Assembly: GCF_015999545.1 (NCBI RefSeq) | Contig: NZ_CP065546.1 | Location: forward strand, 1,054,001 to 1,118,000 | From: Lysinibacillus sp. JNUCC-52 | GTDB taxonomy: Bacteria > Bacillota > Bacilli > Bacillales_A > Planococcaceae | DNA: 64,000 bases | Direction: 5' to 3' | Notes under the pieces: model-generated | What the model was told of the DNA's origin: nothing | The model's input: only the letters and a program-made list of their open reading frames with translations | The model's database searches: none | Made by a program: the position numbers and the translations under genes | In this document: piece by piece, positions 5,604 through 19,542 of the stretch | Layout: every line of letters starts with the position of its first letter | How positions within the stretch are numbered: the first letter of the stretch is position 1

Positions 5604-6368
5604 TTATATAGCAGCTGATTCCATCATTTTTTTCTCAATTGCTTTTTGTTCTGTGGCATTCAGGACTTTTTCAGGTAAATTGTTAGAAATTCGAATAGTA
5701 TAACGACCATCTAATATAATTTTCTTTAAGTCCGTTATTGTATGGCAGTCTTGCTCTAGTTCGTTGTAGATACAGCCATACTGTAAAAGATGATGTGTAT
5801 CACTTCCACCTATAACTGGTTTATTGTATGTTTTAGCAAATTGATAAACAAGGTGCGAATTTTCTTCAATGCCCATTGAATATAAATCTTTACCATTTAA
5901 ATCGAACGCATCCAGCTTATTTAATAAAGTTGGATCAAGATGATACAACGGCGTACTTTTACGATACGGATGTGCGCCAATTATTAATAGCTCGTATTGT
6001 GCGACAAGTTCAAGTAACTGCGCAAACTTAATAAAGCTATCTTTGGCTATATATGGTTCTAACTTTGTACGTATTTCGCGAATGATAGCTCGGTCGGCCA
6101 CAATTAAAATATGCCCCACCTCTTGAATATCTACTTCCATCCCAGGGAAAATTCTCACATTGTCTACTAAGTAGTAATTTTGAATATATGGATAAACCTC
6201 ATCAAGTGTGTTATAGACATCAAAAAAATTACGTGTATTAAAATGTTCTGTTAAAGCGAAGCCAGAAAGACCATTTTCTTGCGCTGATTTCACCATGTTT
6301 CTAAAATAATCTAATGAAAACTCAACTTTTTTTGAAAGCTTACCATGTGTGTGAAAATCGAAATTCAT
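5604..6368 (-). CDS. PHP-domain metal-dependent phosphoesterase
   Basis: 254 residues, a stand-alone PHP domain. Metal ligands are visible in the family order: HTH at 6-8, TEH at 40-42, the Glu of GMEVD near 78, His at 86 (GHI), the His of GAHPY near 133, and the SDTHH motif near 195. Such proteins hydrolyse phosphomonoesters (histidinol phosphate, nucleotides, oligoribonucleotides) with a trinuclear metal site. It is the last gene of the ECF transporter operon, 22 bp after the T component, so its substrate may be the imported compound after phosphorylation, or a phosphorylated nutrient. It lacks polymerase-type fusions. The family call is firm; the substrate is unknown. Confidence 0.85.
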   Translation of the reverse strand: MNFDFHTHGKLSKKVEFSLDYFRNMVKSAQENGLSGFALTEHFNTRNFFDVYNTLDEVYPYIQNYYLVDNVRIFPGMEVDIQEVGHILIVADRAIIREIRTKLEPYIAKDSFIKFAQLLELVAQYELLIIGAHPYRKSTPLYHLDPTLLNKLDAFDLNGKDLYSMGIEENSHLVYQFAKTYNKPVIGGSDTHHLLQYGCIYNELEQDCHTITDLKKIILDGRYTIRISNNLPEKVLNATEQKAIEKKMMESAAI

Positions 6369-6390
6369 CTAAATGCACATCCTTTTTAGT

Positions 6391-7209
6391 TTAATAGTAA
6401 ATTCCTAATGTAAAACTACACCCAATATAAAATATTGAGAAAACAATAAATAAGTAATCATTGCGCTTGAAAGTAAAGTAAGCTGTCTTCAGCTTTTTTA
6501 CTTCTGTATTATTTGTAGCATGACTAAATCCTTTTGTTTCTAGTGCTTCAATAGTGGTTCTTGAACGCTTTGCCCCATTTAAAATAAGTGGATAAAATGA
6601 TAAAACTAAGATTTTCATATAGTAGAACCCCATGCGCCAATATAAAAAACCCGTTTTTTCAGGTGCCTTGCCTCGTAATCGATACGACAAAATCACTTTA
6701 TGAAATTCTTCCATTAAAGTAGGTAAAATGCGATAGCAATAAGACACACTAAACGAGACTTGAACAGGAACCCCTAAACGTATTAATGCATCACTAAACT
6801 TTTCAGGATCTAAACTCGTGAACACAGCTACGCTTGCTAATGATATAATTGCAAGCTTAATTGTCAGCCAAAACATTGGTTCGATTGATGCTAATTCTCC
6901 ACCAAAAAATAAAGAGATAATAAATAATACAGCTATTTCACTAACTAACCCGACAAATAAAATGATTAATATAAGTGGGCTTACGCGTGCTAAAATCGTC
7001 ATTCCTACCATAAACAATAAAAAGCAAACTAATATCATTTCGTTATGGATAAACCATGGGACAATCGCGAAAAATAAATACCAGAAAACAAGTGTCCTTG
7101 GATCCAATCGACCTAAATAAGTGTCACCACTACCATAGGCTGTTTTTAATAGTTCTCCTTTTACATATTCCAATGAAAGCTTTTCAGATATGCTATTAAA
7201 TATATTCAT
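6391..7209 (-). CDS. ECF transporter T component (EcfT/CbiQ family)
   Basis: 272 residues with five or so membrane segments. The coupling helices carry the Arg-rich family motifs, here SYRLRGK near 180 and a second one with RSRTTIEALETKGF near 220, which contact the ATPases. It links the substrate-binding S component to ATP hydrolysis in the membrane. The ATG at 7209 is chosen: GTGAGG lies upstream at suitable spacing, and a GTG at 7224 would overlap it. The gene overlaps the end of the ATPase gene by 14 bp, so the two are translationally coupled. Substrate is not predictable from the T component. Confidence 0.85.
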   Translation of the reverse strand: MNIFNSISEKLSLEYVKGELLKTAYGSGDTYLGRLDPRTLVFWYLFFAIVPWFIHNEMILVCFLLFMVGMTILARVSPLILIILFVGLVSEIAVLFIISLFFGGELASIEPMFWLTIKLAIISLASVAVFTSLDPEKFSDALIRLGVPVQVSFSVSYCYRILPTLMEEFHKVILSYRLRGKAPEKTGFLYWRMGFYYMKILVLSFYPLILNGAKRSRTTIEALETKGFSHATNNTEVKKLKTAYFTFKRNDYLFIVFSIFYIGCSFTLGIYY

Positions 7210-8932
7210 AAGCTTTATCCTCACTTTCTATTATGGTGAACTGTTGGCAAAAGTCTTCAACCGTATAAACTGGTTCAGGTAAACCCAGTTTCATACTCAG
7301 TTCTACTATTTGTGGCATCATTAGCCCAGCTTTTTGTAACACCAATTGATTATGGAAAATATCTTGACGATTCCCATCAGCAATAATTTCACCGTTATGC
7401 ATTACGATAATTCTCGTCGCCCATTCTGACACTAACTGCATATCATGGGTAGCAATAATAACGGTTTTGACATGTTCTTTTAATGTTTCTAACATATGAA
7501 CAACATGCTTTTTCGTAGCAATATCTAAATTGGCTGTTGGCTCATCTAGTAAAATAACACTAGGTTGCATAGCGGCACCAATTGCCAAAGATACTCTCCT
7601 TTTTTGACCACCACTTAATAGCCTCGCATCCCTTTCCTTTAAATCAGTAAGTGCGAAATCTTTTAAGATTGTTTCAACTAAGACTTCGTAATCTTTCACT
7701 TTTCTAGCCTTTAAGAAAAGCTCAATCTCCCTTTTTACTGAATCCTCAATAAACATCTCCTCTGGATTTTGATAAACATATGATACATATTTACCTAATC
7801 TTTCAGGAGTCGCATTCGTTGTTGATGTATTTAAAACGGTTACTTGACCTTTATGTGGTTTCACAATACCTGCTATTAGTTTGATTAATGAAGATTTACC
7901 AGCACCATTATTGCCAACAATCGCTATCCGCTCTCCCTCAAAAAAAGTAGTATTAATATTATTTAACACTTGTTTTTTCTGCTTTTTTAAATTGCGAAAT
8001 TGTAAAGAGACGTGTTCCATATTAACGATTGCTTTCTTATCTTGTTTTAAATGGATGTCTGATTTATTGGCTCTTGATGTGTTAGTGATTTTCGAAAATG
8101 TATTAAAATGTGCAATTCCTTCTTCTAACGTTATTGGTAGCTCTGGAGCCATTCCTCCCTCGCCTACCATCAACCTCGCAGCTTGTGTAATTTGTGGTGG
8201 GTATATGTTATGACTAACTAATTCATCAACTTTGGATAAAGCTATCTTGACAGGCTCTTTCCATAAGATACGGCCCATATCCATTAACACAACTGATTGA
8301 CAATATTCAGCTATCAGTTCTGCATGATGCTCAATTACAATAATCGTCATCCCGAATTGTTCATTTAATTTTTTCAGCACTCGATACACTTCTTCGGCAT
8401 GCTGTGGATCTAACTGTGCAACTGGTTCATCGACGATTAATATTTTAGGTTTCATAGCGAGAACACCTGCAATCGCTAATAAATGCTTTTGTCCCCCACT
8501 CAATTCCCAAATAAATTCATTTGCGATAGCAGTTAACCCTGTTACATCTAGAGCCCATCGTCCTCTTTCTTTATAATCCGCTAAGCCATAATTCAACGGC
8601 ACAAATGACGCATCATCTAGAACAGTTGGCCGCATAATTTGATTCTCAAAATCTTGGTATACATACCCTATATCTTGTGATAACTCTGCAACTGAAAATT
8701 GCGATGTATCACGATTTCCGACAGTTACTTTCCCTTCAAAATCACCAACATAAAATTTAGGAATAAGTCCGTTAAATGTTTTACATAATGTCGTTTTACC
8801 TGAGCCATTCCCTCCAATAATTGCTACAAATTCGCCTTCATTTACAGTGAGGTTGGCGTTATTTAAAACTTTATCTTCAGCGCCAGGGTATGTGAAAGAC
8901 ACATCTTCAACTTGAATAATAGGCTTAACCAA
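7196..8932 (-). CDS. ECF transporter fused double ATPase (EcfA-EcfA')
   Basis: 578 residues with two complete ABC ATPase domains in one chain. The first has Walker A GGNGSGKTT near 40 and LSGGQ near 140. The second has GNNGAGKSS near 340, LSGGQKRR near 440 and a Walker B ending LLDEPTAN. ECF importers usually have two separate ATPases; a fused form is typical of dedicated modules such as YkoD-like ones. The TTG at 8932 is preferred, with AAGGAG 10 nt upstream inside the end of the S-component gene; another TTG at 8941 touches the ribosome site. It overlaps the S component by 8 bp and the T component by 14 bp, so one transcript is expected. Confidence 0.88.
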   Translation of the reverse strand: MVKPIIQVEDVSFTYPGAEDKVLNNANLTVNEGEFVAIIGGNGSGKTTLCKTFNGLIPKFYVGDFEGKVTVGNRDTSQFSVAELSQDIGYVYQDFENQIMRPTVLDDASFVPLNYGLADYKERGRWALDVTGLTAIANEFIWELSGGQKHLLAIAGVLAMKPKILIVDEPVAQLDPQHAEEVYRVLKKLNEQFGMTIIVIEHHAELIAEYCQSVVLMDMGRILWKEPVKIALSKVDELVSHNIYPPQITQAARLMVGEGGMAPELPITLEEGIAHFNTFSKITNTSRANKSDIHLKQDKKAIVNMEHVSLQFRNLKKQKKQVLNNINTTFFEGERIAIVGNNGAGKSSLIKLIAGIVKPHKGQVTVLNTSTTNATPERLGKYVSYVYQNPEEMFIEDSVKREIELFLKARKVKDYEVLVETILKDFALTDLKERDARLLSGGQKRRVSLAIGAAMQPSVILLDEPTANLDIATKKHVVHMLETLKEHVKTVIIATHDMQLVSEWATRIIVMHNGEIIADGNRQDIFHNQLVLQKAGLMMPQIVELSMKLGLPEPVYTVEDFCQQFTIIESEDKAYEYI

Positions 8933-16987: not shown

Positions 16988-17455
16988 TTAACTAATTAGT
17001 TTCTGTAAGTTCGCCATTTCAATAGCTGAGATTGCTGCATCATAGCCTTTATTCCCTGATTTTGTTCCAGCTCGTTCCACTGCCTGTTCAATATTTTCGG
17101 TTGTGACAACACCAAAAATAACTGGTACATTTGTAGCAAGAGACACATTTGCTATGCCTTTTGCTGATTCGTTACAAACATAATCATAATGTGTTGTAGA
17201 GCCACGAATAACTGTACCTAAACCAATAATGGCATCATATTTTTTTGTTTCAGCTAATTGTTTTGCGATAAATGGAATTTCGAATGCACCTGGTACCCAC
17301 GCAACATCAATTAACTCTTCGTCTACACCGTGACGCTTTAAGCCATCTAATGCGCCACTTAATAATTTACTTGTAATAAATTCATTGAATCGACCAACTA
17401 CTACCGCTATTTTTAAATCATTGCCGATCAATTGTGCTTCAAATGTTTTTCCCAT
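16988..17455 (-). CDS. ribH: 6,7-dimethyl-8-ribityllumazine synthase
   Basis: 155 residues, the standard length. It condenses the ribityl-aminouracil intermediate with dihydroxybutanone phosphate to give lumazine, the penultimate step of riboflavin synthesis. Family stretches are [20 protein letters not shown], the substrate loop PGAFEIP, and [21 protein letters not shown], which holds the catalytic His and the phosphate contacts. It probably assembles a 60-subunit shell, as in Bacillus. It is last in ribE-ribB-ribH, 16 bp after ribB, with GAGGAG at its start. Confidence 0.97.
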
Positions 17456-17471
17456 AATGAATTCTCCTCTT

Positions 17472-18101
17472 TTACACTGTAAGTGAATTTTTTCCTTGGA
17501 TTTGTTGACGGCGATATGCTGCTAATGCATCAATCGATATCATTTTTAATTGGTGTTTTTTTGCATATTTAACTAAATCATCGAAGCGTAACATTTCACC
17601 ATCATCCCCCATAATTTCACAAATTACGCCCGCTTGTATGCTTTGGCAAAGCTTCGCTAAATCGATAGTAGCCTCAGTATGTCCTCTGCGTTCTAACACA
17701 CCATTTTCCTTTGCTATCAGGGGAAATACATGACCAGGTCTACGAAAATCAGTCGCTTGCGCTTGTGACGCTAGCATTTTCTGAATCGTCAATGCACGTT
17801 CATAGGCGCTAATACCTGTTTTTGTATCTATATAATCAATACTTACGGTAAATGCCGTTTGATGATTGTCTGTATTATTTACGACCATTGGAGGCAATGC
17901 TAATTGTTGTGCAAGCTGCTGTGAAATCGGCGTACAAATAAGCCCTCTTCCATATGTAGCCATAAAGTTTATCGTTTCTGGTGTCATAAACTCTGCAAGG
18001 GCAAGTAAATCCCCTTCATTTTCACGGTCTTCATCGTCCACGACAACAATCATTTTGCCTTGTTTTAAATCTGCAATTGCTTCTTCAATTGAATGTAGCA
18101 A
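17472..18101 (-). CDS. ribB: 3,4-dihydroxy-2-butanone-4-phosphate synthase (stand-alone RibB)
   Basis: 209 residues. The active-site loop [11 protein letters not shown], the segment RPGHVFPL and the late [11 protein letters not shown] identify RibB, which makes the four-carbon unit of riboflavin from ribulose 5-phosphate. In most Bacillus rib operons this domain is fused to GTP cyclohydrolase II (RibA); here the chain stops after the RibB domain and no RibA sequence follows. The TTG at 18101 is the likely start, with AGGAGG 8 nt upstream; a GTG at 18110 overlaps that site. ribA must be elsewhere if the pathway is complete. Confidence 0.95.
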
Positions 18102-18158
18102 AATTGCCACCTCCTAATAAACTTTCATTTATTGTCCGTTCTATACTTTCTAAACAGG

Positions 18159-18797
18159 CTAAAAGCCATGCTTTGCTAAGTAATCTTTCGTAATGGCCGA
18201 TGTTTGCTGACCACGGTGGAGCTGATGCATAATGTATTTGCCAATCAAATCGGTTTCTATGTTGACTAATGCCCCAACATTTTTTATTCCTAGTACTGTT
18301 TCCTCGTATGTGTGCGGAATAAGAGATACGGTAACACTGTTTTTATCCACATAGAAGAGCGTTAAGCTTGTTCCATCAATTGTGATTGAACCTTTAGGAA
18401 TACAATAGCTCGTTAATTGTTCTGACAGTGCTATATCGATGTAGACTGCATTGGCCATTGGACGTTTGCGTAAAATTTTCCCCACACCGTCAACATGACC
18501 TGAAACAAAATGACCGCCAAAACGCCCGTTTGCAGGCATCGCTCGCTCTAAATTTACAGCATTCCCAACGACCAGTTGCTGCAAATTTGTCGCTTTCACT
18601 GTTTCAGGCATTACGTCCATTGTTAATTCCTGCTCATTATATTGTGTGACTGTCAAACATACGCCATTAACAGCTATACTATCTCCTAGCTTCACATCAG
18701 ATACTATCTTTGGCGAAGTAACAGTTATTTTCATACTTTGCCTATCGTTTTGCAAGGTTTTTACTGTACCAATATCCTCAATAATACCTGTAAACAT
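18159..18797 (-). CDS. ribE: Riboflavin synthase (alpha subunit)
   Basis: 212 residues made of two lumazine-binding repeats (about 1-97 and 98-195). The start MFTGIIEDIG and the motif GDSIAVNGVCLTV are diagnostic; the second repeat has the matching KGSITIDGTSLTL. It dismutates two lumazines to riboflavin. It is the first coding gene behind the two FMN riboswitches and is followed by ribB after 57 bp. In B. subtilis, ribD would precede it; that gene is missing from this position. Confidence 0.96.
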   Translation of the reverse strand: MFTGIIEDIGTVKTLQNDRQSMKITVTSPKIVSDVKLGDSIAVNGVCLTVTQYNEQELTMDVMPETVKATNLQQLVVGNAVNLERAMPANGRFGGHFVSGHVDGVGKILRKRPMANAVYIDIALSEQLTSYCIPKGSITIDGTSLTLFYVDKNSVTVSLIPHTYEETVLGIKNVGALVNIETDLIGKYIMHQLHRGQQTSAITKDYLAKHGF

Positions 18798-18854: not shown

Positions 18855-18882
18855 AAAAAACCCCTTTTTAACAAAGGGGTTT
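18855..18882 (-). terminator. Terminator of the proximal FMN riboswitch
   Basis: AAACCCCTTT / AAAGGGGTTT stem followed by six T residues on the minus strand, between riboswitch 2 and ribE. An alternative element with GTGGA / TCCAC lies just upstream and may be part of the antiterminator. Confidence 0.85.
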
Positions 18883-18956
18883 GGGAGTTCTAATAAATAA
18901 GACGTCACGAAATAAACCTAGTGGATATGATATTCTCCACAGGCTACCATCTCATT

Positions 18957-19076
18957 GTTCTTCTCCCATCCAGACTATAACTGTCGGTTTTGGATTTGCA
19001 CCAAATCAGCTTGCGCTCACGGACTTTGAATTGCTTCATCACCGCCGATTGGGAATTTCACCCTACCCCGAAGAAC
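18957..19076 (-). promoter_or_regulatory. FMN riboswitch (RFN element), proximal copy
   Basis: On the minus strand the conserved FMN aptamer is readable in order: GTTCTTCGGGGTAGGGTGAA, a TCCCaatCGGCGGT segment, the AAAGTCCGTGAGCGC segment, GATTTGGTGCAAATCC and the closing CCGACAGT and GTCTGGATGGGAGAA blocks. The closing stem pairs GTTCTTC (19070-19076) with GAAGAAC (18957-18963). FMN binding should favour the terminator at 18855-18882. Confidence 0.96.
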
Positions 19077-19103
19077 AGATACTTATTAAATTGTTAACTA
19101 AAT

Positions 19104-19133
19104 AAAAAACTCCCCAACGAAGTCGATGGGAAG
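19104..19133 (-). terminator. Terminator of the distal FMN riboswitch
   Basis: CTTCCCA / TGGGGAG stem, loop TCGACTTCG, followed by six T residues on the minus strand, located between the two aptamers. Confidence 0.8.
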
Positions 19134-19204
19134 TAGCAATCTATATAAGCGTAGCCAAATAGACCCTTTAAACTCATACGAATTTAAAAAGCTTATACGT
19201 TTAC

Positions 19205-19320
19205 CCTTCTCCCATCCAGACTGTAACTGTCGGTTTTGGATTTGCACCAAATCAGCTTGCGCTCACGGACTTTGAATTACTTCATCACCGCCGATTGGGA
19301 ATTTCACCCTACCCTGAAGG
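19205..19320 (-). promoter_or_regulatory. FMN riboswitch (RFN element), distal copy
   Basis: Nearly identical to the proximal copy through the aptamer core, with its own closing stem (CCTTC at 19316-19320 with GAAGG at 19205-19209). It comes first in the transcript. Together with its terminator it makes a complete switch of its own, giving two FMN switches in series ahead of ribE. Confidence 0.96.
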
Positions 19321-19542
19321 ATATGTTTATTTAGTTACTTCATACGATAACATTATTTTAATACATTATCTACTTAAAATTTTTTAATGGCTATTTTGTG
19401 TAGTTTAATTGCCTTGGCACAATCCAAATGTGCAAATTAAAACAACCAGCCAACAATTGAGCGTATTAAGGAGCTAGTGACTTTTAGGATACTTTAAAAT
19501 TAGTAACGTCGAATGGAATTTTGAAGGATTCATAAATAAATA
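19321..19542. other. Intergenic region containing the rib promoter
   Basis: AT-rich and gene-free. The rib operon promoter must lie in its left part, reading leftwards; possible boxes exist but none is distinctive. Confidence 0.4.

Follow-up and report, generated by a model that had tools for sequence, protein, structure and literature searches.

The leader of the Bacillus subtilis ribDEAHT operon carries a single FMN riboswitch. This switch acts by transcription attenuation and has a pause that raises termination (PMC12288461), features that the leader units described below would probably share. In the available portion of that source, NusG-dependent pauses are reported to raise FMN-dependent termination in the ribD and fmnP FMN leaders of B. 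subtilis; the non-template strand carries the motif TTNTTT at such pauses, whether or not a hairpin precedes it, the motif alone is insufficient for pausing, and NusG residues N81 and T82 are named as those that recognise it.

FMN riboswitches are also found in tandem. The survey of PMC9481103, in its available part, gives 31 doublets and four triplets of tandem pseudo-cooperative FMN riboswitches, in which complete riboswitches of the same class, each with its own expression platform, stand in series before a gene or operon. FMN-FMN and FMN-FMN-FMN arrangements upstream of ribE-ribB-ribH are described in Bacillota by PMC12452182, whose Table 2 gives, for ribE, ribB and ribH, doublets as 87% and triplets as 13%; the name Lysinibacillus is absent from its main text.

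The window analysed here, a stretch of 64,000 nucleotides from Lysinibacillus sp. JNUCC-52, is a clean example of this arrangement. Its operon and leader match the systems of PMC12452182, with no difference seen in the available part of that paper, and it holds an ordinary doublet of the kind surveyed in PMC9481103, although relatives compared below reach four and five copies where the accessible survey data extend to triplets. The best explanation of the locus, and one held with considerable confidence, is that two complete and independent FMN-dependent transcription attenuators stand in series ('pseudo-cooperative') before ribE-ribB-ribH. Beyond the FMN doublets and triplets described in the available portions of these sources, the comparison adds the relatives with four and five copies, sites resembling the pause motif, and apparently homogenised cores combined with copy-specific, compensated P1 stems.

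Two FMN aptamers upstream of ribE

The initial annotation placed two near-identical FMN aptamers on the same strand upstream of ribE, and the Rfam covariance model RF00050 confirmed both as valid aptamers, with full-length matches spanning model positions 1-138 and scores of 115.2 and 116.7 bits against a gathering score of 66.2 bits (Table 1). These are the only Rfam matches above cut-off in the window. The copies are identical at 115 of 126 positions; of the 11 mismatches, eight fall within the P1 stem or its flanking bases and three elsewhere, at positions 11, 47 and 103. The spacing between them, first put at about 130 bp, measures 120 nt and contains terminator 1 and no ORF. The first gene after the tandem leader is ribE, followed by ribB and ribH; PF00926 is the only Pfam match of ribB, whose start codon was taken from the ORF list, and a GTP cyclohydrolase II domain was not found in it.

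Table 1. Features of the tandem FMN leader and its operon (window coordinates)
Feature	Position	Strand	Basis
Promoter-like block before copy 1	19344..19372	minus	TAGATA - 17 nt - TATCGT; TG one base ahead of second hexamer
FMN aptamer, copy 1	19200..19325	minus	RF00050, 115.2 bits, E 3.9e-26
3' end of aptamer 1 (GAUGGGAGAAG), proposed antiterminator strand	19206..19216	minus	Complementary to terminator 1 left arm
Hairpin between aptamer 1 and terminator 1, proposed pause hairpin	19163..19192	minus	Fold; similar layout by eye in genus
CTATTT, one base off NusG pause motif TTNTTT	19157..19162	minus	Pattern search
Terminator 1, hairpin and T run	19104..19134	minus	Folds; stem/T-run criterion
FMN aptamer, copy 2	18954..19079	minus	RF00050, 116.7 bits, E 1.5e-26
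Hairpin between aptamer 2 and terminator 2, proposed pause hairpin	18917..18944	minus	Fold
TTATTT, NusG pause-motif match	18910..18915	minus	Pattern search
CUCCCA, can pair with UGGGAG at 3' end of aptamer 2	18882..18887	minus	Folds
Terminator 2, hairpin and T run	18855..18882 (approximate)	minus	Consensus scan; folds; stem/T-run criterion
ribE, riboflavin synthase	18159..18797	minus	TIGR00187, 261 bits
ribB, 3,4-dihydroxy-2-butanone-4-phosphate synthase	17472..18110	minus	PF00926, 287 bits, residues 9-199 of 212
ribH, lumazine synthase	16988..17455	minus	TIGR00114, 195 bits

The promoter-like block before copy 1 was missed by a simple consensus scan. All 28 doublet genomes of the genus nevertheless carry the pattern T(A/G)GATA-N14-TG-N-TAT-N-GT ahead of copy 1 and none carries it between the copies; the best promoter consensus score after terminator 1 is lower than that before copy 1 in 27 of them, with a tie in L140. 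An independent promoter between the copies, which had been named as a finding that would count against the tandem reading, is not apparent as a conserved element, leaving room for an atypical one. One transcript, initiated a short way ahead of copy 1, would cross both attenuators before reaching ribE-ribB-ribH.

Terminators and pause-like sites

A hairpin with a T run was said to follow each aptamer, and this was borne out: the stretches containing terminators 1 and 2 fold at -13.4 and -15.7 kcal/mol respectively, and in both cases none of 200 shuffles was as good. A simple consensus terminator scan gave the second terminator only (two overlapping forms; shuffle mean 1.2), whereas terminator 1 is visible in the folds. 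Downstream of 124 of 134 cassettes there is a stem of at least 7 bp adjoining a T run, the remaining ten being missed by this criterion, as against 5 of 402 shuffles; within the genus doublets it follows 55 of 56 copies, and the sole miss, copy 1 of L025, does show a terminator in its fold. Automated fold-based terminator finding took a wrong, earlier hairpin in two of 55 cassettes (Lederbergia copy 2 and Kurthia copy 1).

Two complete riboswitches of one ligand class, each made up of an aptamer and an expression platform, thus precede one ORF, which is the arrangement of tandem pseudo-cooperative riboswitches; the glycine type, in which two aptamers serve one expression platform, differs in this respect, each FMN copy having its own terminator. 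Two near-identical aptamers of the same class in one leader could in principle form a single cooperative sensor with a shared platform, in the style of the glycine riboswitch, but the separate terminators and a linker after terminator 1 whose length varies across the genus (22 to about 150 nt) make this most improbable. Two independent attenuators, each expected to bind FMN and to terminate transcription, account better for these features.

In the copies inspected by eye, a hairpin and then a T-rich motif lie between aptamer and terminator. Among the genus first copies, 18 of 28 contain strict TTNTTT and ten, the window included, CTATTT. A relaxed pattern ((C/T)TATTT or TTNTTT, 15-62 nt after the aptamer) is present in 137 of 139 cassettes from 59 loci, compared with a mean of 33.8 and a maximum of 47 in 300 shuffles, which preserved base content but not dinucleotides, the cassette sequences themselves being related. 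The 139 include L060 and L092, which repeat genomes G012 and G006; once these two duplicate loci are removed, the pattern occurs in 133 of 135 cassettes at 57 loci, as CTATTT (10), TT(A/C/G)TTT (112) or TTTTTT (11), the last of which could perhaps belong to a hairpin. Both cassettes without the pattern are in L162 (the truncated unit 3, and unit 4), and the count excludes the second set of L035 as well as L175, L174, L098 and L105. The only NusG match of the source genome bears N81 and T82 (numbered from MEKNWY), and NusG-type pausing at the window sites is likely. The hairpin and T-rich motif would probably pause the polymerase through NusG, buying time for FMN binding.

Predicted switching of the two copies

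In the proposed mechanism, the aptamer end would pair in the absence of FMN with the terminator left arm or with the bases just ahead of it, so that P1 opens and the polymerase reads through; with FMN bound, P1 would be held, the terminator would form and transcription would stop. In ligand-free partial-transcript folds of both window cassettes, P1 has a probability of 0.0 at length 204, with the terminator left arm already present, and at this length GAUGGGAGAAG of copy 1 has a pairing probability of 0.99. Earlier transient dips in P1, before the terminator arm, occur at length 180 in copy 1 and 150 in copy 2. At full-length ligand-free equilibrium copy 1 favours the antiterminated state (terminator 0.03) and copy 2 the terminator (1.0), so copy 2 would depend on timing; in the folds, its UGGGAG/CUCCCA helix is compatible with simultaneous terminator 2.

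Ligand-free P1 probability is below 0.1 in 126 of 134 cassettes, yet also in 602 of 804 shuffles, and as a test of switching P1 opening does not discriminate the two. Complementarity between terminator arm and aptamer end exceeds that of shuffles (0.05 level) for 27 of 133 cassettes, a modest overall enrichment; neither window cassette reaches this level (0.25 and 0.22), the complementarity between GAUGGGAGAAG and the terminator 1 left arm being equalled or beaten by 25% of shuffles. An antiterminator that competes with both P1 and the terminator is plausible from these models.

Distribution of the doublet within and beyond the genus

The genus sample comprised 32 Lysinibacillus genomes, the source genome included. 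The doublet is present in 28, one genome (G030) has a triplet and one (G008) a quintuplet, and G010 (86% complete) and G013 have one aptamer each, next to a transporter-type gene. Both copies thus persist in related genomes, the check that the initial annotation had proposed, and with the doublet in 28 of 32 genomes an assembly artefact is rejected for the window pair. The second operon copy of G030 (L035) lies beside a run of N at 5951-8554 and is itself likely to be an assembly artefact.

The earlier statement that single FMN switches are the rule holds among named ribE loci and fails within the genus. In the best 80 of at least 588 named ribE loci, 68 have a single aptamer, seven have two, two have one aptamer that appears interrupted and three have none in the stretch of DNA examined; doublets are also found at named loci of Psychrobacillus (two), Kurthia, Lederbergia and Bacillus sp. 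FJAT-49711. One aptamer is apparently interrupted in a variable stem in L098 (3767-4059, Planomicrobium), L105 (3758-4177, Planococcus) and L174 (1937-2231), where the model gives two weak halves about 90-210 nt apart.

A ribD-like gene had been suggested to have once stood between the copies, so that the second copy would mark the site of a ribD lost from between two separately switched genes. The absence of ribD from the window operon, and its location elsewhere in the genome, would fit, but the 78 gaps measured between adjacent copies, at 82-248 nt, are too small to accommodate ribD; those in operons that contain ribD are at most 248 nt long, and there the gene lies after the array (L034, L036, L038, L061, L062, L160, L161, L162, L163, L171 and L172). 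The sole aptamer-ribD-aptamer layout seen is that of L175, a locus with runs of N whose two copies are likely to be an assembly artefact. A lost ribD is therefore rejected, its probability being minimal.

Longer arrays in relatives

Among same-family relatives selected for several aptamer matches, three copies are present in G036, G078, G095, G096, G111, G138, G136, G167, G077, G069 and G105, four in G072 and G116, four with one truncated in G125, and five in G008. In total, 57 distinct tandem loci (41 doublets, 12 triplets, three quadruplets and one quintuplet, two duplicates having been removed) were compared, and as these were chosen for being tandem their numbers are not a frequency estimate. 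The available parts of PMC9481103 and PMC12452182 report no FMN array of four or five copies.

In G008, units 2-4 are 98.5-99.5% identical to each other over 202 bp, and units 1 and 5 are about 89% and about 78% identical to them; unit 5 has a different terminator and stands before ribD. This array looks like a recombinational expansion of the whole aptamer-plus-terminator cassette. The third unit of the four-copy FMN array in L162 (2603-2673, 39.7 bits) is truncated, a sign that copies decay.

Age and divergence of the two copies

The P1 stems of the genus doublets differ between copies in a compensated manner. At pair 4/123 all 28 first copies have A-U and all 28 second copies G-C, and pair 6/121 is C-G (26) or U-G (2) in first copies and U-A (28) in second copies; 434 of 448 P1 cells are paired natively, compared with 380 of 448 when strands are swapped between copies. 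Because these stems are copy-specific and compensated across the genus, the sequences indicate that the duplication predates the genus sample and that both copies appear to be under structural constraint. In contrast to the P1 stems, the cores are alike: they differ by 2.29 within a genome versus 3.18 +/- 0.17 when copies are re-paired between genomes, and none of 5000 permutations, in which kinship of the genomes is ignored, was as low. The near identity of the cores had been attributed to recent duplication or gene conversion; the latter is favoured by this comparison, whereas a recent duplication is at odds with the presence of the doublet in 28 of 32 genomes and with the fixed copy-specific P1 stems. 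An old duplication that set two leader units in tandem would have given rise to the pair, with the cores probably homogenised, and their likeness maintained, by gene conversion.

The step from copy to copy in the genus ranges from 241 to 369 nt with each copy retaining its own terminator, and therefore fits independent units. In 17 of 28 doublets terminator 1 is followed by a linker of 22-31 nt, and in seven (L021, L022, L023, L026, L032, L141 and L147) by one of about 90-150 nt; stretches of these long linkers are alike among several of the loci and perhaps contain inserted repeats.

The decay seen in the truncated unit of L162 raises the question of whether one copy alone works in the window, the other being a relic or a constitutive attenuator. 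Both copies are full-length model matches in all 28 genus doublets, they retain paired P1 stems with copy-specific compensation, and their terminators are likewise retained, down to the one visible by folding in L025, which together leave this reading with little probability. Somewhat less doubtful, though still unlikely, is that the copies sense different flavins or differ in affinity, giving two-step control in place of simple multiplication. The genus-wide fixation of copy-specific P1 stems would agree with such a difference, but beyond P1 and its flanks the window copies differ just at positions 11, 47 and 103, these columns vary among other aligned aptamers too, and the cores seem homogenised within genomes. 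Different tuning overlaps with the preferred reading of two independent attenuators in series, and the probabilities of the two are not exclusive.

Consequences of two attenuators in series

As the transcript must get past both attenuators, read-through would multiply; compared with a single switch, leak and half-point would be lower and the response somewhat narrower. For illustration, these quantities were calculated with read-through assumed to be limited to 0.9 and 0.1. One switch then has a 9-fold range, a 90-10% concentration span of 81-fold and a half-point of 1.0; in the same order, two switches give 81-fold, 50-fold and 0.48, and five give about 59,000-fold, 30-fold and 0.17. On these values the chief effect of having two copies would be to tighten repression and bring shut-off earlier, the response becoming modestly steeper. 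The steeper or two-step control proposed in the initial annotation is a natural reading of two valid copies with their own terminators.

The source genome contains three FMN aptamers in all; the third is single, lies ~280 kb off and precedes an ECF-transporter S-component gene, probably that of a riboflavin transporter. Since the biosynthetic operon has two copies and the transporter gene one, riboflavin synthesis may be shut off before uptake. A broader proposal, offered tentatively and considered rather less probable than its opposite, is that the FMN leader unit of the family (aptamer, pause site and terminator) is an expandable cassette whose arrays of two to five would lengthen and shorten as near-identical units recombine, with copy number setting leak and half-point and the transporter keeping a single switch, so that biosynthesis would shut off at lower FMN than uptake. 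Relatives with two, three, four and five copies before the same pathway form a natural series for asking whether stacking multiplies repression, and why the biosynthetic operon, not the transporter gene, has the stack.

Other riboflavin genes

In G013, a genus genome that is 99% complete, no GTP cyclohydrolase II match was found, and its single FMN aptamer lies beside the transporter-type gene, which suggests that this organism is unable to make riboflavin. In the source genome the only GTP cyclohydrolase II match is the ribA of a separate cluster (L057, 3660-7189), ~230 kb from the ribE operon, which also contains a full-length ribD and has no FMN aptamer. The B. subtilis operon, in contrast, starts with ribD. 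Because the ribA/ribD cluster is separate and without an FMN aptamer, the early and late halves of riboflavin synthesis seem to be under separate regulation. The cluster also holds FAD-dependent monooxygenase-like and 5'-nucleotidase/HAD-like genes, and adjoins a divergent GntR/TrkA_C-type regulator gene.
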